Positions 3,137 to 28,405 of a DNA stretch of 42,176 nt are shown here, piece after piece. Where the stretch lies: positions 1 to 42,176 of the forward strand of contig JAFVMW010000030.1 of the NCBI GenBank assembly GCA_017506735.1, in the 5' to 3' direction. Source of the stretch: Oscillospiraceae bacterium. Lineage in GTDB: Bacteria; Bacillota; Clostridia; Oscillospirales; Oscillospiraceae. The position numbers and the translations under genes are program-made. Within the stretch, counting starts at the first letter, position 1. Each line of letters starts with the position of its first letter. The notes under the pieces were generated by a model. It did not search any database. It had not been told where the DNA came from and was given only the letters and a program-made list of their open reading frames with translations.

Positions 3137-3241
3137 ACCGGAGTCTGCCGTACCGGATCTGCCGTGAAAAGGGCCTTAAAAGACTCCCCCGGAATTATTC
3201 CTGGGGAGAGTGCGCCCTTCTGACGGAAGATCCGGTTTTTT
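3137..3241 (+). promoter_or_regulatory. Structured leader with terminator, candidate riboswitch or attenuator
   Basis: The untranslated leader can fold into one long interrupted hairpin. ACCGGATC (3152-3159) pairs with GATCCGGT (3229-3236), CCGT with ACGG (3223-3226), AAGGGC (3169-3174) with GCCCTT (3214-3219), and CTCCCC (3184-3189) with GGGGAG (3203-3208). A T-run follows at 3236-3241, giving an intrinsic-terminator shape only 20 nt before the lipoprotein ATG. GGAGTC (3140-3145) could instead pair with GACTCC (3182-3187), a possible antiterminator. TCTGCCGT occurs twice (3144 and 3158). It does not match a riboswitch class I recognise; a metal or cofactor ligand is inference from the downstream importer. 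Confidence 0.6.
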
Positions 3242-3260
3242 GTTGTATGGAGGTAGGAAT

Positions 3261-4190
3261 ATGAAACGGATTGTGTGTCTTTTTCTGCTGCTCGCTCTGG
3301 TTCTGACGGGCTGCGGCGCAGAGTCCCCCAATGGGGGAGGGATTTCCTTCACCGACGATCTAGGCCGGGAGGTTCATCTGGAAAGCAGGCCCCAGCGGGT
3401 GGCCTGTCTGCTGGGCAGCTTTGCCGATGTATGGATGCTCTCCGGCGGCACGGTGATCGCCGCCCCGGATGACGCCTGGGAGGATTTCGGTCTGTCCCTG
3501 GAGGGAGCGGTGAATCTGGGCAACACCAAGCAGATGAGCCTGGAGCTGCTCCTCAGCGCCGAGCCGGACTTTATTCTTGCCAGCACCAACACCCGGCAGG
3601 ATCTGCTGTGGCTGGACACCCTGGAAGCCGCCGGGATTCCGGCCGCCTATTTCGACGTGTCGGATTTCGGGGACTATCTGGAGCTTCTGTCCCTCTGCAC
3701 CCGGCTGAACGACCGCCCCGACCTGTACGAAGCCCACGGCCTGTCCATCCAGGGCCAGATCGAGGACGCCATTGCCCGGGCCGATGCCTATATCCGCCAG
3801 GAGGGCCGGGCACCGAAGGTGCTGTTCCTCCGGGCCTCCGCCACCAGCATCCGGGCCAAAAATTCCCGGGGCAACGTGACCGGCGTAATGCTCCGGGCCC
3901 TGGGCTGTGAGAACATCGCCGATTCTGACGAAAGCCTGCTGGAAAATCTGAGCCTGGAGCATATCCTCCTTCAGGACCCGGACTGCATCTTCTTCGTCCA
4001 GTCCGGCGATGACACCGAAGGCACCCGAGCCCATCTGGAGCAGTTTTTCCGGGACAATCCTGCCTGGCAGACCCTCACCGCCGTCCGGGAGGGCCGGGTG
4101 TATGCGCTGGACAAGCGGCTGTTCAATCTGAAGCCCAACGCCCTCTGGGGCCGGGCTTACGACATTCTTGTGGAGCTGATCTGGGAATGA
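3261..4190 (+). CDS. FecB/BtuF-type substrate-binding lipoprotein
   Basis: A 309-residue lipoprotein that presents a ligand to the ABC importer encoded next. The signal peptide MKRIVCLFLLLALVLTGC ends in a lipobox with lipidated Cys18. The mature part starts with the typical FTDDLGREVHL strand followed by RPQRVACL, as in periplasmic-binding proteins for iron-siderophore, haem, cobalamin or molybdate. The start at 3261 is chosen because GGAGG lies about 7 nt upstream and the signal peptide begins there; the in-frame extension to 3210 lacks both. Its stop overlaps the permease ATG by 4 nt. The substrate cannot be assigned from sequence alone. Confidence 0.9.
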   Translation: MKRIVCLFLLLALVLTGCGAESPNGGGISFTDDLGREVHLESRPQRVACLLGSFADVWMLSGGTVIAAPDDAWEDFGLSLEGAVNLGNTKQMSLELLLSAEPDFILASTNTRQDLLWLDTLEAAGIPAAYFDVSDFGDYLELLSLCTRLNDRPDLYEAHGLSIQGQIEDAIARADAYIRQEGRAPKVLFLRASATSIRAKNSRGNVTGVMLRALGCENIADSDESLLENLSLEHILLQDPDCIFFVQSGDDTEGTRAHLEQFFRDNPAWQTLTAVREGRVYALDKRLFNLKPNALWGRAYDILVELIWE

Positions 4191-5173
4191 AACAAAGAAC
4201 CCCTCTTTTTGTGCTGGCAGGCCTTTCCTGCGTTCTGGCCTGTCTGCTGAGTCTGACCCTGGGGGCGGCAGGAATGCCCCTGTCCACCCTTGTCCAGGCC
4301 CTGGCCCGGCCGGACAGCACTCCGGGCCGGATTCTGTTTCTGGTTCGTCTGCCCCGGACCGCCGGCTGTCTGCTGGCCGGAGCGGCCCTTGCGGTTTCCG
4401 GCTGCGTGATCCAGGGGGTGCTGGCCAATCCCCTGGCCTCCCCGGGCATCATCGGTGTCAACGCCGGGGCAGGCTTTGCCGTCACGGTGTGCTGCGCCCT
4501 GGGCGCCCTGTCCGGCTGGACCATGGCCCTCTCCGCTTTCCTGGGGGCCCTGGGAGCGGCGGCGGCCATCGCCTTTTTCGGCAGCCGCACGGGAGCCTCC
4601 CGAACCACCGTGATCCTGGCAGGCGTGGCTGTCAACGCCTTTCTGGGCGGCCTGTCGGAATCCGTCACCTCCCTGTTTCCCGATGTCGCCATGCTGAGTG
4701 TGGATTTCCGGGTGGGCGGCTTCGGCTCGGTGGCGGTTTCCCGGCTGATGCCTGCCGGGCTGCTGATCCTGGCAGGGCTGGCGCTGGTCTGTTCGCTCCA
4801 CAACGAGCTGGATGTGATGAGTCTGGGCGCGGACACCGCCCGTGGCCTGGGTATGAATGTAAAAGGAATGCAGGCCCTGTTCCTGGGTCTGGCGGCGCTG
4901 CTGGCCGGAGCCAGCGTCAGCTTCGCAGGACTGCTGGGCTTCGTGGGCCTCATTGTTCCCCATAGCTGCCGGAAGGCCGTGGGCAGTGAAGCACGGCTTC
5001 TGCTGCCCCTGTCCGCCCTGACAGGAGCCGCCTTTGTGACCCTGGCGGATCTGCTGGCAAGGCTCCTTTTCGCCCCCTTTGAGCTGCCGGTGGGTGTGCT
5101 GCTGTCCGTGCTGGGCGGCCCCTTCTTCCTGTGGCTGCTCTTGACCCGGAAGGGAGGTCACGGAGATGATTGA
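4187..5173 (+). CDS. FecCD/BtuC-type ABC permease
   Basis: A 328-residue, very hydrophobic membrane protein of the FecCD/BtuC family, with about 9-10 predicted helices. It forms the membrane channel of a type II importer. Recognisable family segments are LFLVRLPRTAGCLLAGAALAVSG near the N-terminus, GVLANPLASPGIIGVNAGAG, and the C-terminal AGLLGFVGLIVPHSCRK, which couples to the ATPase. Translation is coupled to the upstream lipoprotein by an ATGA overlap and to the downstream ATPase by an 8-nt overlap. Only one permease gene is present, so the channel is presumably a homodimer. Confidence 0.92.
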   Translation: MKQRTPLFVLAGLSCVLACLLSLTLGAAGMPLSTLVQALARPDSTPGRILFLVRLPRTAGCLLAGAALAVSGCVIQGVLANPLASPGIIGVNAGAGFAVTVCCALGALSGWTMALSAFLGALGAAAAIAFFGSRTGASRTTVILAGVAVNAFLGGLSESVTSLFPDVAMLSVDFRVGGFGSVAVSRLMPAGLLILAGLALVCSLHNELDVMSLGADTARGLGMNVKGMQALFLGLAALLAGASVSFAGLLGFVGLIVPHSCRKAVGSEARLLLPLSALTGAAFVTLADLLARLLFAPFELPVGVLLSVLGGPFFLWLLLTRKGGHGDD

Positions 5174-5933
5174 ATTGCGGAACGCGACCCTGGGCTACCC
5201 CGGAAAAACCGTCCTCCGGGATGTGACCCTTTCCTTCCCGGCCGGACAGATCACCGTCCTCCTGGGCCCCAACGGCTCCGGCAAATCCACCCTGCTGAAG
5301 GCCATACTGGGCCTTTCTCAGCTCCAGGACGGCGCCATTCTTGTTCAGGGCAAACCTCTGGAAGCCTGGGATTCTGCCGCCCTGGCCCGGCAGGTGGCCT
5401 GTCTGCCCCAGAGCCGGAGGGTGCCGGACATGACGGTGGAGCGGCTGGTGCTTCACGGCCGGTTTCCCTACCTCCGCTATCCCCGGCGCTACCGCCCCCA
5501 GGACCGTGCCGCTGCCCGGCAGGCCATGGAGCAGGTGGGCATTCTGGAATACGCCGGGCAGGAACTGAAGACCCTCTCCGGCGGCACCCGTCAGAAGGCC
5601 TACATCGCCATGGCCCTGGCCCAGGATACTGCCGCGGTACTGCTGGACGAGCCAAACGCCTATCTGGATCTGGCCCATCAGCTTCAGCTCATGGCGCTGT
5701 GCCGGGACCTGGCCCGTCAGGGCAAGGCGGTGGTGGTGGTTCTCCACGATCTGAATCTGGCCCTTCAATATGCTGACCGGATCGCCCTGTTTGCCAACGG
5801 AACCCTCCTTGCCCAGGGTACCGGCCCAGAGCTTTGTGCAAGCGGCGACCTGAACCAGGCCTTCGGCGTGGAAGTCACCCCCTGGGAAACGCCCCAGGGC
5901 ACCCATTATACCTTCCGCCTCCCCCGGGAATGA
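5166..5933 (+). CDS. FecE/BtuD-type ABC ATPase
   Basis: A 255-residue cytoplasmic ATPase powering the metal-chelate importer. It has Walker A GPNGSGKST (about residues 35-43), a signature loop LSGGTRQKAYIAMALAQ, Walker B AVLLDEPNAYLDL and the switch His in VVLHDLN. The signature carries T where most members have Q or E (LSGGT), a minor variant. GGAGG lies upstream of the ATG, inside the end of the permease gene. The gene ends 7 nt before a strong hairpin terminator, closing a three-gene operon. Substrate class (siderophore, haem, cobalamin) is unresolved. Confidence 0.93.
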   Translation: MIELRNATLGYPGKTVLRDVTLSFPAGQITVLLGPNGSGKSTLLKAILGLSQLQDGAILVQGKPLEAWDSAALARQVACLPQSRRVPDMTVERLVLHGRFPYLRYPRRYRPQDRAAARQAMEQVGILEYAGQELKTLSGGTRQKAYIAMALAQDTAAVLLDEPNAYLDLAHQLQLMALCRDLARQGKAVVVVLHDLNLALQYADRIALFANGTLLAQGTGPELCASGDLNQAFGVEVTPWETPQGTHYTFRLPRE

Positions 5934-19241: not shown

Positions 19242-20075
19242 TTATTCCACAGGTTCTGTGGCTTTCTCTGTCGGCTCGGCAGGGTCTGTTACAGACGGCA
19301 CCGACTCCGCAGGCGCTTCCGAAGGCTGGGCTGGATCGCTGGCGGAAGGCGTGGACTCCGTCGGTTCCTCTGAAGGCTCAGTCGGATCACTGACAGCCGG
19401 TGTGGATTCACTGGGTTCCTCCGATGGTTCGGTCGGATCGCTGACAGCCGGTGTAGATTCACTGGGTTCCTCCGAAGGCTCGGTCGGATCACTGACAGCC
19501 GGTGTAGATTCACTGGGTTCCTCCGATGGTTCGGTCGGATCACTGACAGCCGGTGTCAGATCAGATGGGTCAAGCGGCTCCACTGTAATCACCACAGCCA
19601 GAGGCTCATCTGTCTGTACCGGACTTTCTCCCCAATTGGTAGACAGCGTCATTTCCACAGCTCCGCCGGTCACGGACAGAGGAACCACAATCGACTCATC
19701 CACCAACAGGGTTGCGGTGGTAAACGAATGGCTCTCTCCCACCGTATCCGTCAGAAGAAGCTGGCAATATCCCCGGCAGGTGCCGGTATTGTCAATGGTC
19801 AGCACATATTCACCCGGCCCCAGAGTATAAATCCCTTCCGCAGGTTCCACAGGAACTCCGTCCTGTGCCAGCTGGGCTGACACGGTGAACTCCCCTATGG
19901 AAATGGCATTATTCTGGCTGGTTATGGAATAACTGAACAGGGCCCAGGTGGTGGAGGCCAGGCCGAACATACACAGAAAAATACAGAATACTGAGGAAAA
20001 GAGCACCCGAAACAGATCCTTTTCCGTCATTTTACGATCTTCCGGAACTGTAAACAGTTCCTTCCATTTGGACAT
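19242..20075 (-). CDS. Small TasA-like protein with Pro/Ser/Glu-rich repeat tail
   Basis: A 277-residue secreted protein. Unusually, about 25 cytoplasmic residues precede the hydrophobic signal helix (about 22-46), which ends in TTWALFSYS, a variant of the SipW-type motif; QNNAISIGEF follows as in TasA-like subunits. The globular domain covers about 50-165. The tail (about 172-277) consists of 17-residue repeats of the type STPAVSDPTEPSEEPSE, encoded by a 51-bp tandem repeat. Such acidic Pro-rich tails commonly act as wall-spanning stalks. There is no sortase motif or C-terminal membrane helix. It lies 23 nt downstream of the previous subunit gene. Confidence 0.8.
   Translation of the reverse strand: MSKWKELFTVPEDRKMTEKDLFRVLFSSVFCIFLCMFGLASTTWALFSYSITSQNNAISIGEFTVSAQLAQDGVPVEPAEGIYTLGPGEYVLTIDNTGTCRGYCQLLLTDTVGESHSFTTATLLVDESIVVPLSVTGGAVEMTLSTNWGESPVQTDEPLAVVITVEPLDPSDLTPAVSDPTEPSEEPSESTPAVSDPTEPSEEPSESTPAVSDPTEPSEEPSESTPAVSDPTEPSEEPTESTPSASDPAQPSEAPAESVPSVTDPAEPTEKATEPVE
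19374..19560 (-). repeat. 51-bp tandem repeat inside the 277-aa protein gene
   Basis: The string CTGACAGCCGG recurs at 19390, 19441, 19492 and 19543, a period of 51 bp (17 codons). A more diverged unit lies to the left (about 19328-19380). Adjacent units are nearly identical, so copy number could change by slippage without frameshift. Confidence 0.9.
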
Positions 20076-20098: not shown

Positions 20099-20764
20099 TC
20101 ACTCCAGATCCGTTCCTGCCTGCTGGGCAAATACGGTAACACCCAGCTCCACGGTTGGCACGGTGGTACCCCGATAATTGGCTTCATTACCGGTTTCTTC
20201 CGGCATCCAGACAATCAGCGCGGCATAGCGCTTGCTGCCTGTCAGCACCGTCACATCATCAACCTCAGAATACTGGTTCAGCAGTAGATCCAGCACTTCC
20301 TTGTCTGCCAGAGCCTGAGCAGCAGCCCGTTCCAGCTCCGGCTCAGAATCGGCGAAAACAACACCGAACCTCAGATGCGTAGGCAGATGGAGTCTGCCGC
20401 CGAAAACATTCACGCTGTCCACCCAGGACCGGCAGTCCACAGACAGCTTGTAGTCAAAATTCACATCGCCGTTATTTTCAATCCGCAGGTATACCACCTG
20501 GGTGTAGCCAGGCTCATACAGAGCCTCCTCAGAAAAAACGGGAGTTTCTGCCTCCACCGGAGCGTACTCGACCATGGTGTCATTCTTATAGAATACATCC
20601 AGGTCCAGAATTCCGATGAGGAAAGAGTTTCGGATGGATTCCGTACTGTCGGTGAACCAGGCAATGGTGGTACCCGCTCCCATCAGAATCCAGAGCACAA
20701 GCAAGCACAGAGACAGTGCCATCGCTTTTTGATATATAGATTTTCGTTTCATGCGACGGATCAT
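20099..20764 (-). CDS. TasA/CalY-like fibre subunit, 221 aa
   Basis: A secreted protein with a SipW-type signal ending MGAGTTIAWFTD (AWF at 35-37), then SIRNSFLIGILDLDVFY. It shares YEPGYTQVVYLRIENNGDVNF with the larger subunits, and the rest is a single beta-rich domain ending near the C-terminus. The start at 20764 has AAAGG five nt upstream; the next Met (20752) lacks a ribosome site. It lies 22 nt downstream of the anchor-protein gene and 23 nt upstream of the repeat-tail protein gene, in an evident operon. Probably a fibre component; the exact position in the fibre is unknown. Confidence 0.83.
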   Translation of the reverse strand: MIRRMKRKSIYQKAMALSLCLLVLWILMGAGTTIAWFTDSTESIRNSFLIGILDLDVFYKNDTMVEYAPVEAETPVFSEEALYEPGYTQVVYLRIENNGDVNFDYKLSVDCRSWVDSVNVFGGRLHLPTHLRFGVVFADSEPELERAAAQALADKEVLDLLLNQYSEVDDVTVLTGSKRYAALIVWMPEETGNEANYRGTTVPTVELGVTVFAQQAGTDLE

Positions 20765-20786: not shown

Positions 20787-21431
20787 TCAGGTATTATGCT
20801 CTTGCTTCCGCCGGGGCATCAGCAGGAACAGAAGCAAGATTCCGGACAGACAGAAGGTCAGTCCGTAGGCCATCAGACCGGACTCGTCGCCGGTGTCTGG
20901 TGGTTCGGGGTCGGTGTCTTCCACCGGGTATTCTTCGATCATGAATTCCCAGTCCAGATATCCCACCAGGTTTTTGAACTGGTTGTCCAGCGTCACCGGC
21001 ACATCCAGACGGAGGATCAGCTCCAGCTCACCGCCGGAATACAGGGTTCCCAGATATACCCAGTCCGTAAGCTGGGCGGACTGATCCGCTGCCGCGTCAA
21101 AGAGTACCGTTTCTTCCGCCTCTTCCACCGACAGCCGAAGCTGGGAGAGGAATTCCACAGAATCCGGTTGGGCGCCCAGACTCCGTAGGTATACCTTGAT
21201 TTTCACCTCATTGTCCGCATCATTGCGCAGCAGGACGGTCTGCTCCAGCTGATCGCCGGGCATCACATCCTTGAACCCGGTGAACAGATCCGTGGGGGAA
21301 TAATCGCTGCCGGGTTCGAAGACAAAGGAGCCGGCGTTGCCGTCATAGATGACCTGGCCCTGGGCAAATACAGGGGTGATCAGCAGCAGCACAGCCAATA
21401 CAGCCCCGAGGAGAGAATACAAACGTCTCAT
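20787..21431 (-). CDS. Sortase-type wall-anchored protein of the fibre locus
   Basis: A 214-residue secreted protein with an ordinary signal peptide (LLGAVLAVLLLITPVFAQG) and no AWFTD motif, unlike its neighbours. The mature domain (about 25-170) has MPGDQLEQTVLLRNDADNEVKIKVYL, the strand pattern of TasA-like accessory proteins. It ends with PPDTG (residues 177-181), a hydrophobic helix and the basic tail MPRRKQ, the three-part sortase sorting signal in a variant of LPXTG. It could fix the fibre to peptidoglycan. No sortase gene is in the window. Its start overlaps the upstream subunit gene by 4 nt, so the two are translationally coupled. Confidence 0.8.
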   Translation of the reverse strand: MRRLYSLLGAVLAVLLLITPVFAQGQVIYDGNAGSFVFEPGSDYSPTDLFTGFKDVMPGDQLEQTVLLRNDADNEVKIKVYLRSLGAQPDSVEFLSQLRLSVEEAEETVLFDAAADQSAQLTDWVYLGTLYSGGELELILRLDVPVTLDNQFKNLVGYLDWEFMIEEYPVEDTDPEPPDTGDESGLMAYGLTFCLSGILLLFLLMPRRKQEHNT

Positions 21432-22006
21432 CCGGTCACCTCCCCGTCCAGAGCAGGCCAGCCCGCAGCCTCCCAGGGATGCTGAGCAGGGTTATGTTCA
21501 GACTGAACAGCCTGGGCTGTAACAGTCAACGTCAGAGTCTTGCCGATGTAATTCTGATCCACCTTGTCGCCAACAATCTCCACCTGCGTAAATACCGGAG
21601 GTGTAGATTCACCGGGCTGGAGAATCTCATTATAATAGATGCATCCGTCCTCACGGCTTGTCCAGGCGGACTCGTTCAGATTCACCCGGAATACCTCCTC
21701 CGCACTGAGTTCCTGGCTGTCGATGCCGTTGACCAGCCGGACTCGAAGGTAGAAGGGATGTCCGCAAACATTCTCAATGACTACAGTCTTGCCCACAATA
21801 TCACCCGGGATGATGTACACACCCTCCTCCGGGAAGGGAGAACCGTCAGCGGTGTACTCGTGAATCACAAGCTGAATGTCACCGGAGGTGACCACATTGG
21901 TTGCCTTGCCGATGAGGGAGTAATATGCCAGGGTATTCTGGGAAAGAAGGGTCACAAAAATCGCTGCAATTGCGATCAGCGCCAGTTTTCGCCGGGTTCC
22001 GGCCAT
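21428..22006 (-). CDS. TasA/CalY-like subunit, 192 aa
   Basis: A small secreted protein with a signal helix ending SQNTLAYYS (residues 22-30), a degenerate SipW-type motif, then ATNVVTSGDIQLVIHEY. The domain is beta-rich, with PGDIVGKTVVIENVCGHPFYLRVRL and TLTVTAQAVQSEHN, the latter shared with the 239-aa subunit (VATQAVQSEG). GGAGGG lies upstream of the ATG. The 4-nt overlap with the anchor-protein gene suggests the two products work as a pair, for example as the base of the fibre; this is inference. Confidence 0.8.
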   Translation of the reverse strand: MAGTRRKLALIAIAAIFVTLLSQNTLAYYSLIGKATNVVTSGDIQLVIHEYTADGSPFPEEGVYIIPGDIVGKTVVIENVCGHPFYLRVRLVNGIDSQELSAEEVFRVNLNESAWTSREDGCIYYNEILQPGESTPPVFTQVEIVGDKVDQNYIGKTLTLTVTAQAVQSEHNPAQHPWEAAGWPALDGEVTG

Positions 22007-22156: not shown

Positions 22157-22828
22157 TCACTCAACGAAGTCGAAAGCGTCCTCGGCATTGGATGCGGGAA
22201 CATTCTCGACCTGGACAGCGCTGGCATGGACATCGATGGTCAGAGCGTTACCCTTGGTAGCGAACAGATCATCCTGAGTCAGATTGGTGGGGATCTTCAC
22301 GTTGGTGAAGGTTGCCACGGGATCAGCATCAGGAGTCAGAACATTCTTCAGGTAGAACACATAGGTGCAGGTATCCTCGGTGAGGTCCTCAACGATATGT
22401 CCATCGCGATCTGCGGTCCAGTTTGCGTCAAAGTCATCGGCAAAGGTCAGCAGGGTCTTCAGATCCGCACCCTCGCTGATGATCTTCCATGCGGAAGCAT
22501 CCTTGAAGGTAATGGTCAGACGGATCCACTGGTCATAACGGCCGGTGTTCTCCACGTAGGGAGCCTTATCCAGCACATCACCGGGAACCACATCCTCGAA
22601 TTCAGCACCGCCTTCCTCAACACGCTCGGGGACACCATCACCATCGGTGTCCACTTCTTCGAATACATCCACGGAGAAGATGTCATCAGCATCCTCATCA
22701 TCATCGGTAACAACGAAGAACTCGTTGGTCACATTCTCCTCGTCGGAGAACCATGCCAAAGTGCTGAAGGACAGAATGGCAATCAGGCAGACAGCCAGAG
22801 CGGTCACAAACAACTTTTTCTTATTCAT
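22157..22828 (-). CDS. TasA/CalY-like subunit with acidic Ca-binding-like insert
   Basis: A 223-residue secreted protein. The signal ends FSTLAWFSDEENVTNEFF (AWF at 25-27), typical of SipW substrates. An acidic stretch (residues 41-75) contains DTDGDGVPERVEE, like the Asp-rich loops of EF-hand or thrombospondin type 3 calcium sites; binding is inferred only. The rest is a beta-sandwich-like domain (VVPGDVLDKAPYVENTGRYDQWIRLTITF) ending in HASAVQVENVPASNAEDAF, which resembles the C-terminus of the 239-aa subunit. GGAGG precedes the ATG. It lies 72 nt downstream of the 239-aa gene. Confidence 0.85.
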   Translation of the reverse strand: MNKKKLFVTALAVCLIAILSFSTLAWFSDEENVTNEFFVVTDDDEDADDIFSVDVFEEVDTDGDGVPERVEEGGAEFEDVVPGDVLDKAPYVENTGRYDQWIRLTITFKDASAWKIISEGADLKTLLTFADDFDANWTADRDGHIVEDLTEDTCTYVFYLKNVLTPDADPVATFTNVKIPTNLTQDDLFATKGNALTIDVHASAVQVENVPASNAEDAFDFVE

Positions 22829-22900: not shown

Positions 22901-23620
22901 TTAGCCGGCAAAATCCGGCAGTGTGGTCTGGAAGGTCGCGGACAGCGCGGAAGCGGCATCTGCAAAGCCTTCGGACTGAACAGCCTGGGTTGCGACCAGG
23001 ATATCAATGGTGGTCAGGAGTTTGCCCTCGGCATCAGCGATCTCAAAGCCGGTAAACTCATAGGCCTTGGTTTCCTCATTCCAGATACAGAACTCCAGAT
23101 TTGCGCTTTCAGTGTCGGGGTTGTCCTTCACATCCACATTGGCCTTCAGGTACACACCGTTGAGCAGAGCATCGGTGACAGCCTTGCTTGCCAGCGCATC
23201 ATTGTAGCGGAAGGTGTAGACGGTGTACTCCAGACCGCTTTCATCCACGTAGGGAGAATTGAATTCCCAGGTCCAGTTCTCACCGGCGATGTCCAGAACC
23301 AGGCAGTTATTCAGCTTGGTGGGAACCGCAATGTGAGTACGGATGTAGGCGGGATTGTTGCCGGTGTTCTCTACCGTAACAATCTTGTAGATGTAGTTTT
23401 CGTCCGCAGAGGGATTTTCCATATCCACAACAGGCATCATAACCTGTTCCTGTGTGAAGTCCGTGCCATCCTCATTGGTTTCGTGCTGGACAATCTTGAT
23501 GGAGCCGACGGTGAAGGTATTGGTAGCCTGATCCTCATCGGTGAACCATGCCAGAGATCCGCCAACCACCAGGGCCAGCAGGGCCACGGTCAGTGCCAGG
23601 GCCATAATCTTCTTTTTCAT
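22901..23620 (-). CDS. TasA/CalY-like fibre subunit, 239 aa
   Basis: A secreted protein with a signal ending VVGGSLAWFTDEDQATNTFTVGSI (AWF at 24-26), closely matching camelysin/TasA starts. The body carries ENTGNNPAYIRTHIAVP and ends with VATQAVQSEGFADAASAL, a classic TasA-like C-terminal pattern. Its ATG shares one base with the stop codon (TAATG) of the preceding signal-peptidase gene, with AAGGAGG in the peptidase coding end, so expression should be coupled to the enzyme that probably cleaves it. Of all subunits here it most resembles a canonical TasA-type major fibre protein. Confidence 0.87.
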   Translation of the reverse strand: MKKKIMALALTVALLALVVGGSLAWFTDEDQATNTFTVGSIKIVQHETNEDGTDFTQEQVMMPVVDMENPSADENYIYKIVTVENTGNNPAYIRTHIAVPTKLNNCLVLDIAGENWTWEFNSPYVDESGLEYTVYTFRYNDALASKAVTDALLNGVYLKANVDVKDNPDTESANLEFCIWNEETKAYEFTGFEIADAEGKLLTTIDILVATQAVQSEGFADAASALSATFQTTLPDFAG

Positions 23621-24129
23621 TAGGTTGTTTCCTCCTTTTTATCCTTCTTCTGTACCAGATCGGGCAGGAATGCCGCCGCAAACAGGACGGCCACTACACC
23701 GATGGCTACATACATTCCGGGGGGATGCTGGATGTAATCCGATACATAGCCCAGCAAAGGGATACTGAACTGAGGCACACCGATCAAATTGTTGAAGTGA
23801 ACCGGAGCGGCGTCCGCGGTTTCATTGGCATCGCCCTTGGTGTAGAAATGCCGGCTCTCCGAGTCGATGGCAATCACCCGGTGGGTTGCCACAACCAGAT
23901 CCTCGTTCAGTACAAAGGTAATGGGATCACCGACCTTCACTGCGTCAGGGTCCACAGCCTTCACATACAGCAGATCGCCCACAGAGTAGGTCGGCTCCAT
24001 ACTGCCGGAAATCACATTGTACACCTGGTAGCCCATGAGTCTGGAGCCCATCAGCAAAATGGCAAACACCACCAGCAGACACACCAGTGTGCTGGTGATC
24101 ATATCCCAGATTTTTGCAAACCGTTTCAT
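23620..24129 (-). CDS. sipW: SipW-like signal peptidase I
   Basis: A 169-residue membrane peptidase of the ER-type (Ser-His) class used for TasA/CalY-like substrates. It has an N-terminal membrane helix (about 10-30), catalytic Ser43 in ISGSMEPT, His83 in VVATHRVI, the conserved KGDAN segment near D100, and a C-terminal membrane helix (about 140-160). The true start is the ATG at 24129 with GGAGG nearby; the open frame continues to 24282 without support. It overlaps the next subunit gene by one base and follows a hairpin module. It is the more canonical of the two peptidases here. Confidence 0.92.
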   Translation of the reverse strand: MKRFAKIWDMITSTLVCLLVVFAILLMGSRLMGYQVYNVISGSMEPTYSVGDLLYVKAVDPDAVKVGDPITFVLNEDLVVATHRVIAIDSESRHFYTKGDANETADAAPVHFNNLIGVPQFSIPLLGYVSDYIQHPPGMYVAIGVVAVLFAAAFLPDLVQKKDKKEETT

Positions 24130-24196
24130 TTGTCTTCCTCCTTTCCGCGCCATACAGTTTCTGTAAAACTGCGGATACCGGCGCTGGTTTTCGGCC

Positions 24197-24261
24197 ATCA
24201 AAAAACACCGTGCAGCGTGGGTGTTCTTTGATCGCCGCCCACCCTCCCGGAGGAGGGTGGG
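24197..24261 (-). promoter_or_regulatory. Two-hairpin intergenic module
   Basis: CCCACCCTCC (24238-24247) pairs with GGAGGGTGGG (24252-24261). ATCAAAAAACACC (24197-24209) pairs with GGTGTTCTTTGAT (24220-24232) with one mismatch, and on the minus strand gives a terminator-like GGTGTTTTTT. Same order and linker (CGCCGCC) as the module at 12831-12932. It could attenuate read-through from the 622-aa gene into sipW. Confidence 0.65.
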
Positions 24262-24278
24262 ATGGTTTTGTGTAAAGA

Positions 24279-26147
24279 TCAAGCCTCGGGAGCAGGGGCC
24301 GCCGGAGTTTCCTCGGGCCAGACCACCTTTTCACCGTTTACAAGAATGGTGCAGGCGCGGAGCTTGTTAAAGTCCGCATCATCACCGGGATACTTGAACA
24401 GGGCGATGAAATTATCCGCAGTCACCATTTCGTCGCCGTAGGTACAGTTGTTGAAGATCACCTTGGAATCAGCAGCCACAGTATCGGCGGCACACAGGTC
24501 GAACTCCTCAAAATGGCAGTCCGTATAGGTAGTGTTTCCGTAGATGACCTGATAACCGAGATCGGAATTTCCCGTGCCCAGAGTGCAGTCGATAAACTCG
24601 AAGCTTGCGATATTGCTGAAGCTGCACCAACCGTAGATTTCGGAATCCCGAACCACAACCTTGCCCTTACCGTCGCCATTGCCGTTGATAGCATACTGGA
24701 CATAGTCGATGACCACATTGGAAATCATCAGATCACCGGACAGGGTATAATCACCACTGCTTCCGGAGCCAATGGCCCGGGTGCTGTCGGGATTGCCCAG
24801 AATGGTCAGATTCTTCACCGTGCCACGGGAAGTGGTGATAGCGCAGTCATAGATGCCGGTGATCAGGGTAGCATCCAGAACCTTGCCGTTGCCGTTCAGG
24901 CTGCCGCCGTTCATTACCATCATGGCATCAGGAGCGATGTTATCCATCATCAGCACTGTTCTGCCTTCTTCCAGAGCGTCCTCCAGATCCATTCTGGTGC
25001 TGACGTATTCCGTTCCGTAAGTAACATCAAACTGGCTGAATCCGGTTGTCTCGAAGGTCAGCAGACCAGTATCCGGGTCATAAGTAAAGTTCTGCACAGG
25101 CTGGCCTTCATGGTACAGATCCACGCTGGTCAGACCCCGGGCAATGTTCAGGGATACCGCAATGGGGGCCGTATTCTCCTCAGCAATGCCGGCAACATCC
25201 AGCTCCAAAGACAGGACGCTCTTGCCTGCGGCCACAGTGAATGCAGGCTGCTCCACTTCCTTCAGTGTCAAGGTCAGCTGCTCGGTTCCCTCCACCAGGG
25301 CAACCTCCGCAGGAACTACCACATTCACAGCGGAAATGCTGGTACCGGCAGCCTCTGCCGTCAAGGTGCAGCCATTTTCTGCATCCCAGGGAGTCTTTAC
25401 AATCAGCTCAGTAGGCGTTGCGTCATAGCCGGAACCGAAGGCATCCGTGCCGCCGGCGATCTGGCTGGCCACCAGAGTAATGGTAATGTTATCCAGCACC
25501 TCACCCTGGAGGCTGGTCTGACCTTCACCGGAGGGAATCTCACCGGCAAAGCTCTTTTCCAGATGGAGGGCAATCATATGGAAGGCTTGTCCGTCCTTCT
25601 CATGAATCTCTCCCCGGAACAGGGGCAGCTTTTCATTGATTACTTCATACAGCGTACCGACCCGTACCCATTCGCCGCTGACGGTCATCAGCTCGTAATT
25701 GGCAGGCAGGGTATCGGTGTCCGTGCCGGAGTAGGCCCATACTGTCACAGCCTGGGCGATGGCATCGTTCACCGGCTTGGCGGCCTCATCCGTTTCATCG
25801 GGCATAGAGATGGTCATGTGATAACCAAATTCCAGCTCGCCGGTGTTCACTACCTTGAATTTCTCCACAGCGGTATATCCGGGTTCCCATTTGACCTCCG
25901 GATCCAAAACCTTATACTCAGGCGTAACCTTAGCATATTCTCCGGTCACTTCACCGTTGCGGAAGGATGCGTGGTACAGCTCTACATCCAGGGTGCCCAC
26001 CACAATCTGGTTCAGAGGACTCTGGGCAGTGCTGGTGAACCACGCCATGGTTGTTCCGAAAAACATGGACACGCACAGCATCAGCGACAGCAGGCTGGTC
26101 AGATAAGTCTGCAGCAGGGCGTTTTTCTGCCCGTTTTGTTTCTTCAT
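24279..26147 (-). CDS. TasA-like surface protein with C-terminal beta-helix, 622 aa
   Basis: A secreted protein with a signal ending MFFGTTMAWFTSTAQSPLNQIVVGTLDVELYH (AWF at 35-37). The TasA-like region (about 40-260) shares WEPGYTAVEKFKVVNTGELEF and the DAFGSGYDATP segment with the larger proteins. Residues about 265-385 form one or two beta-sandwich repeats (VVPAEVALVEGTEQLTLTLKE), also present in the giant proteins. Residues about 385-590 look like a short right-handed beta-helix (GSLNGNGKVLDATLITGIYDC), a fold often used for glycan binding or lysis; no catalytic residues are assigned. A Pro/Ala-rich tail ends the protein. It lies 15 nt downstream of the first signal peptidase gene. Confidence 0.85.
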   Translation of the reverse strand: MKKQNGQKNALLQTYLTSLLSLMLCVSMFFGTTMAWFTSTAQSPLNQIVVGTLDVELYHASFRNGEVTGEYAKVTPEYKVLDPEVKWEPGYTAVEKFKVVNTGELEFGYHMTISMPDETDEAAKPVNDAIAQAVTVWAYSGTDTDTLPANYELMTVSGEWVRVGTLYEVINEKLPLFRGEIHEKDGQAFHMIALHLEKSFAGEIPSGEGQTSLQGEVLDNITITLVASQIAGGTDAFGSGYDATPTELIVKTPWDAENGCTLTAEAAGTSISAVNVVVPAEVALVEGTEQLTLTLKEVEQPAFTVAAGKSVLSLELDVAGIAEENTAPIAVSLNIARGLTSVDLYHEGQPVQNFTYDPDTGLLTFETTGFSQFDVTYGTEYVSTRMDLEDALEEGRTVLMMDNIAPDAMMVMNGGSLNGNGKVLDATLITGIYDCAITTSRGTVKNLTILGNPDSTRAIGSGSSGDYTLSGDLMISNVVIDYVQYAINGNGDGKGKVVVRDSEIYGWCSFSNIASFEFIDCTLGTGNSDLGYQVIYGNTTYTDCHFEEFDLCAADTVAADSKVIFNNCTYGDEMVTADNFIALFKYPGDDADFNKLRACTILVNGEKVVWPEETPAAPAPEA

Positions 26148-26162
26148 GGCGATTCCCTCCCG

Positions 26163-26948
26163 TCAGGAATTGTTGGTTTCGGTTTTCTTGTTTTCCGCCA
26201 CCTGGGCCCGGAGAGCCTCCAGCTCTGCCATCATAGCAGCTACATCCGGCTGCTCCGGCTGGGGCTGAGGCGGTGCCTGGGTTGTCTGAGCAGCCATCTG
26301 ATCCTTAATGGCCAGCAGCTGCTGCATCATTTCCTCGGACTGTTTGCGCTGGGCCTCAATGGCATCCTTCTCCGCCTGGAGTTCTGCCATCTGCTCGGCC
26401 TTATAGCGGCGGAAGTTCTTTACACAGTTCAGACCCTGGTTCAGAATCAGCATCAGGAAGGGCAGCAGAATGCAGACGATATATCCCTGGGTGGTTCGCA
26501 GGAACATAAAGAACGAGCCTACCTTGGGCAGTGCGAATGCATACTTGCCCTGAATGAAAGGATAAGTTACCACCCGGGCATCGTCGGTATCCGTAGTGGT
26601 ACCGTAGGTAATGAAACCGGGATTTCCGTGGGAGTCGGTGGTCAGCCGACGGATCTTATGGGTGATGGTCTGACCGTAGCTCTCCGTTTCCTGAGAGGTG
26701 AAAGCAATGATATCGCCAGGCTGCAGGGTTCTGGGATCTGTTTCCTTTACCAGGATCAAGTCACCGGCATCGAAGTCGGTGGCGCTCATGGAGTCAGACA
26801 GAACGATATACGCCTTGTAGCCAAAAATATTCCGATCATTCCGGTTAAACGTGTTAACAGAAACCACTGTAAACACCATCATCGCAACTGCTACGATCAC
26901 AAGCATCCACACCAAGATTGTGGACAAGATTTCCCATACTTTTTTCAT
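26163..26948 (-). CDS. Divergent SipW-like signal peptidase with coiled-coil tail
   Basis: A 261-residue membrane peptidase. After a membrane helix (about 8-32) come likely catalytic Ser53 in VLSDSMSATDF (SDS where most have SGS), His97 in TITHKIR, and a second helix (about 148-170). Unlike typical SipW proteins it continues with a cytoplasmic coiled coil (about 178-215, KAEQMAELQAEKDAIEAQ) and a Gln/Pro-rich tail. The start at 26948 has AGGAG 7 nt upstream; the in-frame Met two codons earlier sits too close to it, and the frame to 27047 is unsupported. It is the first gene of the fibre locus, 100 bp from the invertible segment, so it would be the first gene read when the promoter is flipped. 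Confidence 0.87.
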   Translation of the reverse strand: MKKVWEILSTILVWMLVIVAVAMMVFTVVSVNTFNRNDRNIFGYKAYIVLSDSMSATDFDAGDLILVKETDPRTLQPGDIIAFTSQETESYGQTITHKIRRLTTDSHGNPGFITYGTTTDTDDARVVTYPFIQGKYAFALPKVGSFFMFLRTTQGYIVCILLPFLMLILNQGLNCVKNFRRYKAEQMAELQAEKDAIEAQRKQSEEMMQQLLAIKDQMAAQTTQAPPQPQPEQPDVAAMMAELEALRAQVAENKKTETNNS

Positions 26949-27047
26949 TGACATACTCCTCTGTGCTTTTCTTCCGCACCGCTGGAAGCCCACCTTTGCC
27001 GCCGGACTCGCTCCAGCCCGAAAGGCAGTCTCCTTCTGGTATTGCAC

Positions 27048-27073
27048 TCCACATAATACGCATTATGTGGAAC
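27048..27073 (+). repeat. Left inverted repeat of the invertible segment
   Basis: 26 bp. Half-sites TCCACATAAT and ATTATGTGGA are separated by an asymmetric ACGC centre. Its exact reverse complement is found at 27285-27310. Each repeat is therefore itself a near-palindrome, as expected for a tyrosine-recombinase core site with two binding arms. Confidence 0.93.
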
Positions 27074-27222
27074 AAATTGATGAACAACCGATTGCGCAGC
27101 TTCCGATACAAAAAAGACAGCACGAACTTACTCCCCCTTCGCCTGAGTCACGGAGGGGAAGCAGCGCGTACTGTTTTGTTTTGAAAAACGCAAAAAAGCT
27201 GGCAAAAATCCTGAATAATCCC

Positions 27223-27251
27223 TTGATTTTCCCTATGAATGGAGCTATACT
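27223..27251 (+). promoter_or_regulatory. Strong promoter inside the invertible segment, pointing away from the fibre locus
   Basis: TTGATT (27223-27228), exactly 17 bp, TATACT (27246-27251). Three A-tracts upstream (27184, 27192, 27204) spaced about 8-12 bp apart may act as an UP element. As assembled it would transcribe antisense across the recombinase gene. Confidence 0.8.
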
Positions 27252-27284
27252 TTAGTTAGTGTATAAAAGGGATGTTGCACCCTG

Positions 27285-27310
27285 GTTCCACATAATGCGT
27301 ATTATGTGGA
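27285..27310 (-). repeat. Right inverted repeat, overlapping the recombinase stop codon
   Basis: Reverse complement of 27048-27073, perfect over 26 bp, with centre GCGT. The TAA stop of the recombinase gene (27304-27302) and its last two codons lie in the outer half-site, which is unchanged by inversion, so the protein stays intact in both states. Confidence 0.93.
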
Positions 27311-28183
27311 ACTATGAACATTTTTTGAACGTTTGCCATTTCCTGTTATTACCAAATTCAGACGTTCCAGCTGTTTTCGGTGTTCAACACCGGTACCGAT
27401 AATATAGATTCGGGTCGTTTCAATGCTGCTGTGTCCCAGAACATCGGCCAAGCGGGCGATGTCCCGATCCAGTGCATAGAAGCTCCGCGCAAATAGCTTT
27501 CGCAGATTATGGGGAAATACCTTCCGGGGATCTACCCGGGCCTTGACGCAGAGCTTTTTCATGCTTGCCCACAGATAGCTCCGATCCAAGGCCCGTCCGG
27601 TGCGGGTAACGAACAGCATCCCCCTTCTGATCCGGTGCCTTTTCCCATAGTCAAGCAGCTTCCGGCGCAGGGATGTGGGGATCAGTATGGTTCGGATCTT
27701 ATTTTTGCACCGGACGGTAACCTGCCCTGCGCGAACCGCTTCCACGGTGAAGAACCGCAGCTCGGAGATCCGTATGCCGGTGGAACAGATCGTCTGCAAT
27801 GCCAGACACAGCCTGGGCTGATCCTGCGAGGCATTCACCAGACGAAGGTATTCCTCCCGGGTCAATTCACATTCTACTGACCGGAACATCTGCCTCTGGC
27901 AGCGAAGCGCCTTTACCCGGCATTCCGGGTAGCCCAAAAAAGTCAGCAGACTGTTCACTGCCGCCAGCATGGAATTGACAGACCTCGGCGCATACCCTCT
28001 GTCTACCAGTCGCTGCTTATAACGGGTGGTCAGCTCCCTGCTTATGGACTCCGCCCCGACAAAGCTGAGGAATACTCTCGCATCCCTCATATATTTTTCG
28101 ACAGTGACCGGGCTTTTTTCCTCCCTGATCAGATAGGTCCGAAAAGCAACCAGCCTATTATCCTCCGGCAACAATTTATTCAT
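27302..28183 (-). CDS. XerC/D-like tyrosine recombinase, candidate inversion switch enzyme
   Basis: A 293-residue tyrosine recombinase. An N-terminal SAM-like core-binding domain (about 8-95, SPVTVEKYMRDARVFLSF) is followed by the catalytic domain with Arg138 (TGIRISEL), Lys162 (CKNKIRTI), His225 and Arg228 (PHNLRK), His251 (LGHSS) and nucleophile Tyr260 (TTRIYI), so all six active-site residues are present. GGGAGG lies 7 nt upstream of the ATG. Its 3' end runs into the right inverted repeat. There is no phage or transposon gene around it, so a dedicated DNA-inversion enzyme for the adjacent segment is the simplest reading. The general XerC/D role is unlikely given the linked target sites. 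Confidence 0.9.
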   Translation of the reverse strand: MNKLLPEDNRLVAFRTYLIREEKSPVTVEKYMRDARVFLSFVGAESISRELTTRYKQRLVDRGYAPRSVNSMLAAVNSLLTFLGYPECRVKALRCQRQMFRSVECELTREEYLRLVNASQDQPRLCLALQTICSTGIRISELRFFTVEAVRAGQVTVRCKNKIRTILIPTSLRRKLLDYGKRHRIRRGMLFVTRTGRALDRSYLWASMKKLCVKARVDPRKVFPHNLRKLFARSFYALDRDIARLADVLGHSSIETTRIYIIGTGVEHRKQLERLNLVITGNGKRSKNVHSST

Positions 28184-28295
28184 AGCGTATCCTCCCAGTT
28201 TTTTCTTCAGTATACTCCAGAACCCACCCCCATTCCAGAAGTTTAGTGGTGATACCGATTATTAATGAAAAACCTGAATAAACCGCACTGCAAAA

Positions 28296-28332
28296 GGCCG
28301 AAGACGGAGGGCTGTCGCCACCGTCTTCGGCC
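28296..28332. terminator. Bidirectional stem-loop upstream of the recombinase gene
   Basis: GGCCGAAGACGG (28296-28307) pairs with CCGTCTTCGGCC (28321-28332), flanked by AAAA on the left and GTTT on the right. The 28184-28472 gap has no gene: it holds this hairpin, the next terminator and presumably the recombinase promoter. It would stop antisense transcripts from the invertible promoter. Confidence 0.65.
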
Positions 28333-28405
28333 GTTTCTGACGTATTTTTATCCTCAACAAGTCATTGAAGCTATTATTCAATCCTCAGCATGAAAGCTGT
28401 CCAAT

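Follow-up and report, generated by a model that had tools for sequence, protein, structure and literature searches.

A Probable Promoter-Plus-Terminator Inverton Ahead of a SipW/Camelysin Locus and the Helical Phasing of Recombination Sites in Its Clostridia Family

Results

Genes and Features of the Locus

The window, the whole stretch of DNA that was analyzed, comprises 42,176 nucleotides of an Oscillospiraceae bacterium (assembly GCA_017506735.1, contig JAFVMW010000030.1). It contains a long series of minus-strand ORFs, a short segment bounded by inverted repeats, and a tyrosine recombinase gene (Table 1). The SipW-type signal peptidase of the SipW–TasA matrix system was detected twice, using TIGR02228, together with camelysin/TasA-family substrates that carry SipW-type signals; the TIGR04088 scan covered the ORFs of the locus other than the three large ones. 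Neither peptidase reached the cut-off of the Bacillus SipW equivalog NF046067 (73.6 and 89.9 of 190). The SipW-type peptidases and the camelysin/TasA-family substrates point to a 20-kb SipW/camelysin (TasA-like) locus as the cargo of the switch, with a putative fibre role. Genes of a FecCD-type ABC transporter (binding protein, permease, and ATPase; 3210–5933) lie to the left of this surface locus.

Table 1. Positions of the switch, the recombinase gene and the cargo ORFs in the window.
Feature	Position	Strand	Evidence or detail
Large ORF, 1891 aa	7275–12950	−	Camelysin (PF12389) match below cut-off
Large ORF, 1585 aa	12996–17753	−	Camelysin-type start, PF12389 over cut-off; Ig-like and SASA esterase domains
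Large ORF, 428 aa	17874–19160	−	PF12389 over cut-off
Small ORF	19242–20075	−	Weak or no match
Small ORF	20099–20764	−	TIGR04088 below cut-off
Small ORF	20787–21431	−	Weak or no match
Small ORF	21428–22006	−	PF12389 below cut-off
Small ORF, SipW-type signal	22157–22828	−	TIGR04088 over cut-off
Camelysin/TasA-family SipW-dependent substrate	22901–23620	−	PF12389 27.0 bits; TIGR04088 38.9 bits
Second SipW-like signal peptidase	23620–24282	−	TIGR02228 98.4 bits (cut-off 51.85)
SipW-dependent substrate, 622 aa	24279–26147	−	TIGR04088 19.6 bits (cut-off 19)
SipW-like signal peptidase I, first cargo gene	26163–26948	−	TIGR02228 72 bits (cut-off 51.85)
Untranslated leader, switch to cargo	26949–27047	−	AGGAG Shine-Dalgarno ahead of the ATG at 26948
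Distal recombination site (cargo side)	27048–27073	+	Core ACATAAT-ACGC-ATTATGT; 4-bp center 27058–27061
Two-way intrinsic-terminator-like hairpin behind the promoter	27103–27186	.	T-rich past the stem on both strands
Sigma-A-type promoter	27223–27251	+	TTGATT 27223–27228, 17 nt, TATACT 27246–27251; aimed at the recombinase (OFF)
Proximal recombination site (recombinase side)	27285–27310	−	Exact reverse complement of the distal site
Tyrosine recombinase (XerA-like), presumed invertase	27302–28183	−	293 aa; 3′ end toward the switch

A preliminary description of this DNA had placed a complete tyrosine recombinase gene against the right repeat. The ORF is indeed intact and ends within that repeat, its stop codon being the TAA of ACATAAT (read as ACA-TAA; 27302–27304). 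The protein matched the Phage_integrase domain (E 2.9e-18) and an N-terminal SAM-like domain (E 3.2e-7). The PF00589 catalytic domain scored 66.7 bits against a gathering score of 27.1, which assigns the protein to the tyrosine recombinase superfamily, and the R, H-x-x-R, H, and Y of the motif of these enzymes are recognizable in the translation. Its scores lie far below the curated equivalog cut-offs for the dimer-resolution recombinases XerD (87.4 of 329.6) and XerC (85.6 of 335.15), and below the curated cut-off for XerA (121 of 220). The nearest solved sequence is the XerC-like recombinase 4a8e (E 6.6e-19). No second copy was matched in the organism's own assembly, which is 81% complete, and other relatives are at most about 62% identical to the window protein. 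The named relatives come mostly from Clostridia assemblies, many of them from animal guts. Five genomes (G066, G100, G108, G332, and G393) each gave 4 to 7 recombinase matches, some partial, which suggests several parallel switches in one cell.

The two 26-bp inverted repeats had been described as exact and near-palindromic, with arms TCCACATAAT and ATTATGTGGA and asymmetric 4-bp centers (ACGC and GCGT). All of this holds: the repeats are 100% complementary, with 211 nt between them, and inversion of the segment in silico leaves them unchanged. The sites are 239 bp apart from center to center, and the whole segment is 263 bp long. At 10.5 bp per turn, this spacing corresponds to 22.8 turns, ≈2.5 bp off a whole number. 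No further site within 3 mismatches of the pattern was found in the 2.31-Mb assembly (117 contigs, 81% complete), and the reversed-pattern control likewise returned 0 matches.

The promoter reported between the repeats, TTGATT-17-TATACT, was confirmed to the base, as was its direction, away from the minus-strand locus. Its −10 end lies 38 nt from the site core ahead, and its position and spacing are similar in relatives. With a weight matrix set by hand from the sigma-A consensus, it scored 14.3, just over the 99.9% quantile (14.2) of 1000 mononucleotide shuffles of the segment, whose maximum was 15.5. A simple consensus scan on its own made this promoter unremarkable, with 4 sites in 26850–28400 versus 1.5 expected. 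After inversion, the predicted start would fall near 27100, 152 nt ahead of the ATG at 26948, in agreement with the distance of about 150 nt given earlier. An orientation-independent leftward promoter had been named as evidence against a switch. No good one lies between the first cargo gene and the left site, where the best leftward score (4.7) is below the shuffle median (6.3), and we rejected a separate leftward promoter as the driver of the cargo locus. The predicted ON leader (26949–27100) can form an extended hairpin spanning the site, in which the TTGCAC-type flanks to the left and right of the site are paired; this could be due to chance.

Behind the promoter, the segment contains a hairpin, which the preliminary description had overlooked. 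Two further points absent from that description were the predicted OFF-state transcription antisense to the recombinase gene and the helical phasing seen across the family. On the minus strand, the hairpin has an MFE of −35.3 kcal/mol, compared with −19.5 ± 3.1 for shuffled sequences (z −5.1; 0 of 200 as stable). A hairpin followed by a T-run was detected both ways (−32.8 and −24.1 kcal/mol); a stricter pattern scan and a simple scan missed it. Across the window, no known RNA family reached its gathering score. The weak matches in 26900–27400 (at most 18.4 bits) were taken as chance, though one of them followed the hairpin.

A Conserved Cassette of Recombinase and Site Pair

We collected 43 loci with recombinase relatives from named genome contigs. 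Relatives were also present in 24 of 99 genomes of near relatives (E 1e-20), 109 of 394 genomes of the order, and 59 of 391 genomes of the class (both E 1e-60); each count includes the window's own genome, and the three genome sets overlap one another. The first set comprised 188 loci, 187 of them matching. After removal of 3 duplicates, 180 had the C-terminal part, 164 had at least 500 nt downstream, 150 had an inverted pair scoring at least 13, and 142 passed the site filter. A second set of 66 new loci, from which 6 duplicates were removed, provided 56 usable loci, with 52 passing the site filter and 194 in the combined sets.

An inverted pair with a score of at least 15 follows just past the recombinase stop codon in 144 of 164 loci, the window included. 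No such pair was found in 164 dinucleotide-shuffled windows or in 123 control windows that began 1 kb downstream of that codon. The other 20 first-set loci score below 15, and 4 of 56 second-set loci fail the site filter. The family consensus of the site is ACATAAT-N4-ATTATGT. The 4-bp center varies among loci, yet within a locus the two sites share it in inverted form in 193 of 194 cases, an agreement that the search itself partly imposes. Only one of the 194 centers is a palindrome versus 11.8 expected (p 7e-5), a deficit that the search does not impose. In tyrosine recombinases that distinguish inversion from deletion, the strand-exchange region should be non-palindromic, like these centers. 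The sites of the relatives are inverted and 136–417 bp apart, and in 26 of 194 loci the recombinase stop codon falls within the proximal core by a distance criterion, part of the list having been checked by eye. At three loci (L039, L013, and L027), additional or nested site copies lie beside the switch and could permit segments of two lengths.

The hairpin is also a family feature. A hairpin with a T-run at or below −12 kcal/mol was present in the promoter direction in 109 of 180 segments (36 of 180 after shuffling) and against it in 122 (29 after shuffling). Such an element occurs in at least one direction in 150 of 180 segments, with positions clustered behind the promoter. The stricter scan gave 39 of 180 against the promoter direction (2.2 expected) and 14 of 180 with it (1.4 expected).

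The 3′ end of the recombinase gene faces the switch, and the cargo lies on the far side in the same direction, as in fim; this is an analogy of layout, and no homology of the switch is claimed. The cargo ORF is co-directional with the recombinase in 171 of 188 loci, a lower count because the window is among the 17 opposite-strand picks, the script having chosen an antisense ORF there. The cargo survey scanned 117 of the 171 same-strand ORFs, long ones and some others being omitted by hand. At E 0.001, these first cargo ORFs included 10 signal peptidase I (TIGR02228), 8 type IV pilin signals, 11 TetR_N, 11 Band_7_1 (with zinc-ribbon families at 5–9), and 5 LRR_5 matches. Three of the 117 match tyrosine recombinase families, so some switches may lie between two recombinase genes. 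Inspection of 61 other loci, many with short flanks, revealed SipW-like peptidases downstream of the switch in nine (L004, L006, L013, L023, L026, L027, L036, L046, and L058), SipW-type substrates alone at L031 and L041, and weak matches further on at L045. Given this variety of first cargo ORFs, the switch looks like a module reused ahead of a range of surface and regulatory loci (among them those of pilins, LRR proteins, and regulators).

Orientation of the Segments

By the hand-set promoter weights, the promoter lies clearly on one strand in 180 of the 194 segments, with 126 OFF (toward the recombinase), 54 ON (toward the cargo), and 14 segments ambiguous. With relatedness ignored, the OFF excess has a binomial p of 8e-8. 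We compared 203 segments, with duplicates restored and 37 pairs skipped as ambiguous. Of 355 scored pairs, which share members and are not independent, 309 have alignments that match the promoter direction; the 46 pairs that contradict the promoter call are, all but a few, weak matches. Homologous segments occur on opposite strands, as represented by L121/L133 (86.6% over 202 nt), L122/L211 (90% over 180 nt), L205/L209 (79% over 247 nt), and L211/L219 (82% over 214 nt), and the strongest of these pairs span nearly the whole segment. On the recombinase tree, the ON/OFF labels require 44 changes, compared with 46.6 ± 2.4 for shuffled labels, showing no phylogenetic signal. From the opposite-strand homologues and this random scatter, the segments seem to invert on a time scale that is short relative to species divergence.

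A promoter inverton combines inverted repeats around a short segment, an outward-reading promoter inside it, and the existence of both orientations. The first two are present in the window, the promoter as a sequence match, and the third is found in relatives. A search of related genomes for the inverted segment had been proposed. It did yield homologous segments on opposite strands, and it did not yield the window's own locus in the other orientation. There was little prospect of a same-species copy of opposite orientation, since each species is represented by a single genome in the collections and the named-contig search may omit very near records. The conserved cassette and the two orientations in relatives support the earlier description of a recombinase-linked promoter inverton captured OFF. 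Judged from the family, the window's own segment very likely flips as well.

Helical Phasing of the Site Spacing

The center-to-center spacings of the sites cluster near 221, 230, 241, 251, 262, 272, 284, and 295 bp. In the first set, at all lengths, phasing at 10.5 bp gave R 0.48 (n = 142), while the maximum of 20000 jittered sets was 0.357. The distance from the stop codon to the site, used as a control in the same set, gave R 0.05. For the second set, the test was specified before the data and applied to the 45 of 52 loci with spacings of 150–300 bp; the mean cosine was 0.548 (n = 45), and none of 200000 null draws was as high. When each recombinase clade of the combined set was represented by a single locus, R was 0.51–0.55 below 300 bp (130, 68, and 30 clades). 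The corresponding values for the first set at all lengths were 0.42–0.47 (119, 94, and 48 clades) and, at the deepest cuts of 23 and 13 clades, 0.38–0.39, each not significant alone. Strict sites gave R 0.58 (n = 107). By length bin, R was 0.58, 0.56, 0.64, and 0.52 up to 300 bp (n = 14, 43, 66, and 47) and 0.29 and 0.26 above it, where the bins hold only 13 and 11 loci. The best period at zero phase is 10.48 bp, which corresponds to whole turns; when the class medians are fitted by an unconstrained line, the step is 10.62 bp. The data thus do not fix the exact period independently of the phase. We kept the length contrasts between 29 sister pairs (p 0.03) as weak support for phasing and did not accept them as proof that indels have the size of a turn.

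The promoter, too, is phased. Its −10 end lies mostly 26–28, 36–39, or 45–50 nt from the site core ahead, and the distances below 70 nt gave R 0.65 in the first set (125 of 130 promoters) and 0.70 in the second (49 of 50); these values exclude the remaining 5 and 1 distances (at least 70 nt). The best matches on the weaker strand, unfiltered, gave R 0.19 and 0.14. The 33 loci with out-of-phase lengths keep this register (R 0.61), which suggests a second constraint beyond the twist of the loop.

The autocorrelation of AAA/TTT near 10.5 bp has an amplitude of 0.10 in the segments (193 loci) and 0.064–0.072 upstream of the recombinase. Part of the 10.5-bp signal could therefore have another source, namely phased A-tracts in the segments and, more weakly, in other intergenic DNA. 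Because the A-tract periodicity is only moderately above that of other intergenic DNA of these loci, we do not claim that the segments stand out by their intrinsic DNA curvature.

Discussion

The 263-bp segment is very probably a promoter-plus-terminator inverton that is flipped by the adjoining tyrosine recombinase and stands here in the OFF orientation. Its working order would be recombinase, site, two-way terminator and promoter (in either order), site, and cargo. In the OFF state, antisense transcription from the promoter is predicted to run toward the recombinase gene from its 3′ side. The segment would invert by strand exchange at the near-palindromic sites, within their asymmetric 4-bp centers, and ON-state transcription would then start near 27100 and proceed leftward through the signal-peptidase gene and the genes that follow. 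The putative two-way terminator would stand between the recombinase and the 20-kb SipW/TasA-like locus and keep their transcription apart in both states. Antisense reading toward the recombinase would occur in the OFF state alone; going one step further, it may lower the recombinase and favor OFF, which would explain the OFF excess. The sites would be joined over a short loop (about 220–300 bp in most relatives), and such synapsis could be the reason why selection holds them on nearly one helix face. The promoter, too, would be held in register with the site ahead.

The window itself could instead preserve a decayed or frozen inverton, with a vestigial site pair and a locus now locked OFF or governed from elsewhere. 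A single orientation at the window locus, a −10 element that lacks the TG extension present in 90 of 130 first-set promoters, and a spacing about 2.5 bp out of phase would all be in keeping with decay. The repeats, however, are identical over 26 bp beside an intact recombinase gene, the promoter and hairpin occupy the family positions, and orientation turns over quickly among relatives, which makes a frozen switch improbable. Tyrosine recombinases often serve integration, and the XerA/XerD-like matches of the window protein would also suit a site pair used for attachment or excision by a mobile element or phage, with no gene switch. Such a role is difficult to reconcile with sites that are inverted rather than direct and lie 136–417 bp apart, with a one-strand promoter between them in 180 of 194 loci, with cargo of varied surface or regulatory genes, and with a window that contains no tRNA; we regard it as very improbable. 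As for phage origin, 8 pattern matches appeared in a viral collection; none was confirmed as a relative, and the candidate was dropped.

The phasing is a separate matter. In physical terms, it is most simply read as the meeting of two recombinase-bound sites over a short DNA loop that resists a change of twist. The same 10.5-bp quantisation could arise from phased A-tracts or common descent with no constraint from synapsis, an account that draws on the AAA/TTT periodicity in the segments and upstream of the recombinase and on the weakness of the sister contrasts and deepest clade cuts. Against it, the phasing persists with one locus per clade (below 300 bp) and in the second set, and only 392 of the 20503 possible pairs among the 203 segments align at E 1e-4, so segment lengths are largely independent of shared sequence. 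The low R of the stop-to-site control distance also argues against this origin, as does the lower R above 300 bp, which loop torsion predicts. We judge A-tracts or descent an unlikely source of the quantisation.

The loop reading can be extended, tentatively, to a class-wide rule for Clostridia, which we consider possible rather than probable. Under such a rule, the sites would lie whole B-DNA turns apart and the promoter at a fixed rotation to the site ahead, even at out-of-phase loci. The recombinase might then meet its partner face to face over a bare, stiff loop without accessory bending proteins and contact or gate RNA polymerase, so that transcription and flipping would be coupled. Given the two-way terminator and OFF-state antisense reading, the inversion rate could be set by the switch itself through its orientation.

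Promoter invertons are well known, and Jiang et al. in 2019 reportedly described Bacteroidota examples with the promoter between inverted repeats ahead of surface loci. Bacteroidota invertons differ from the window in having other repeat motifs and a Bacteroidota promoter motif, according to a survey of 2025 (Microbiome 2025, PMC11892184). Closer to the window is inverton group 139 of that survey. As described there, this group comprises 33 invertons, 32 of them from Clostridia, and is linked to a nearby tyrosine-type recombinase group (invertase group 35); it is read-supported in a defined gut community (PMC11892184). Like the window, these are Clostridia invertons linked to a nearby tyrosine recombinase. 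Group 139 may well be the present family; its motif is absent from the main text of the article. The article mentions possible terminator motifs downstream of genes in general terms only, and it contains none of the words "helical", "periodicity", or "10.5 bp" (PMC11892184). Among the matches listed from titles and abstract openings of the openly licensed PMC literature, we found no report of quantised inverton lengths or a phase rule.

The fimE–fimS–fimA system of E. coli resembles the window in its tyrosine recombinase near the switch, a segment that carries the operon promoter, an OFF bias (PMC9993118, PMC2784873), and a terminator inside the segment, which acts on the fimE transcript (PMC9993118). 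In contrast to the window, fimS has 314 bp, 9-bp repeats, a Rho-dependent terminator, two recombinases, and the helpers Fis and Lrp (PMC9993118). In the window, a single recombinase accompanies 26-bp repeats built on a near-palindromic core, and the hairpin is two-way and of the intrinsic type. The cwpV/RecV switch of C. difficile shares with it an XerC/XerD-family tyrosine recombinase and repeats ahead of a surface-protein gene; its 21-bp repeats are described as 195 bp apart, with an intrinsic terminator proposed, and the switch as mostly OFF in strain 630 (PMC2784873). In cwpV, however, the promoter lies outside the segment and recV is distant (PMC2784873), whereas in the window the promoter and hairpin lie inside and the recombinase adjoins.

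The window locus would represent a further promoter inverton, placed ahead of a SipW/TasA-like surface system, and bet-hedging of a biofilm-matrix-like locus is its likely consequence. Together, recombinase, site pair, hairpin, and promoter form a sharp signature that can be used to locate such switches in genomes and to read their state. The more general point concerns the family, in which the twist of DNA has apparently been recorded by evolution in loops of a few hundred bases, with spacings that step by about 10.5 bp and a signal that is weaker above 300 bp, where loci are few. Loop torsion and recombinase–promoter geometry thereby become testable from genomes and from half-turn insertions, and a phase rule would provide a design rule for compact recombinase switches.
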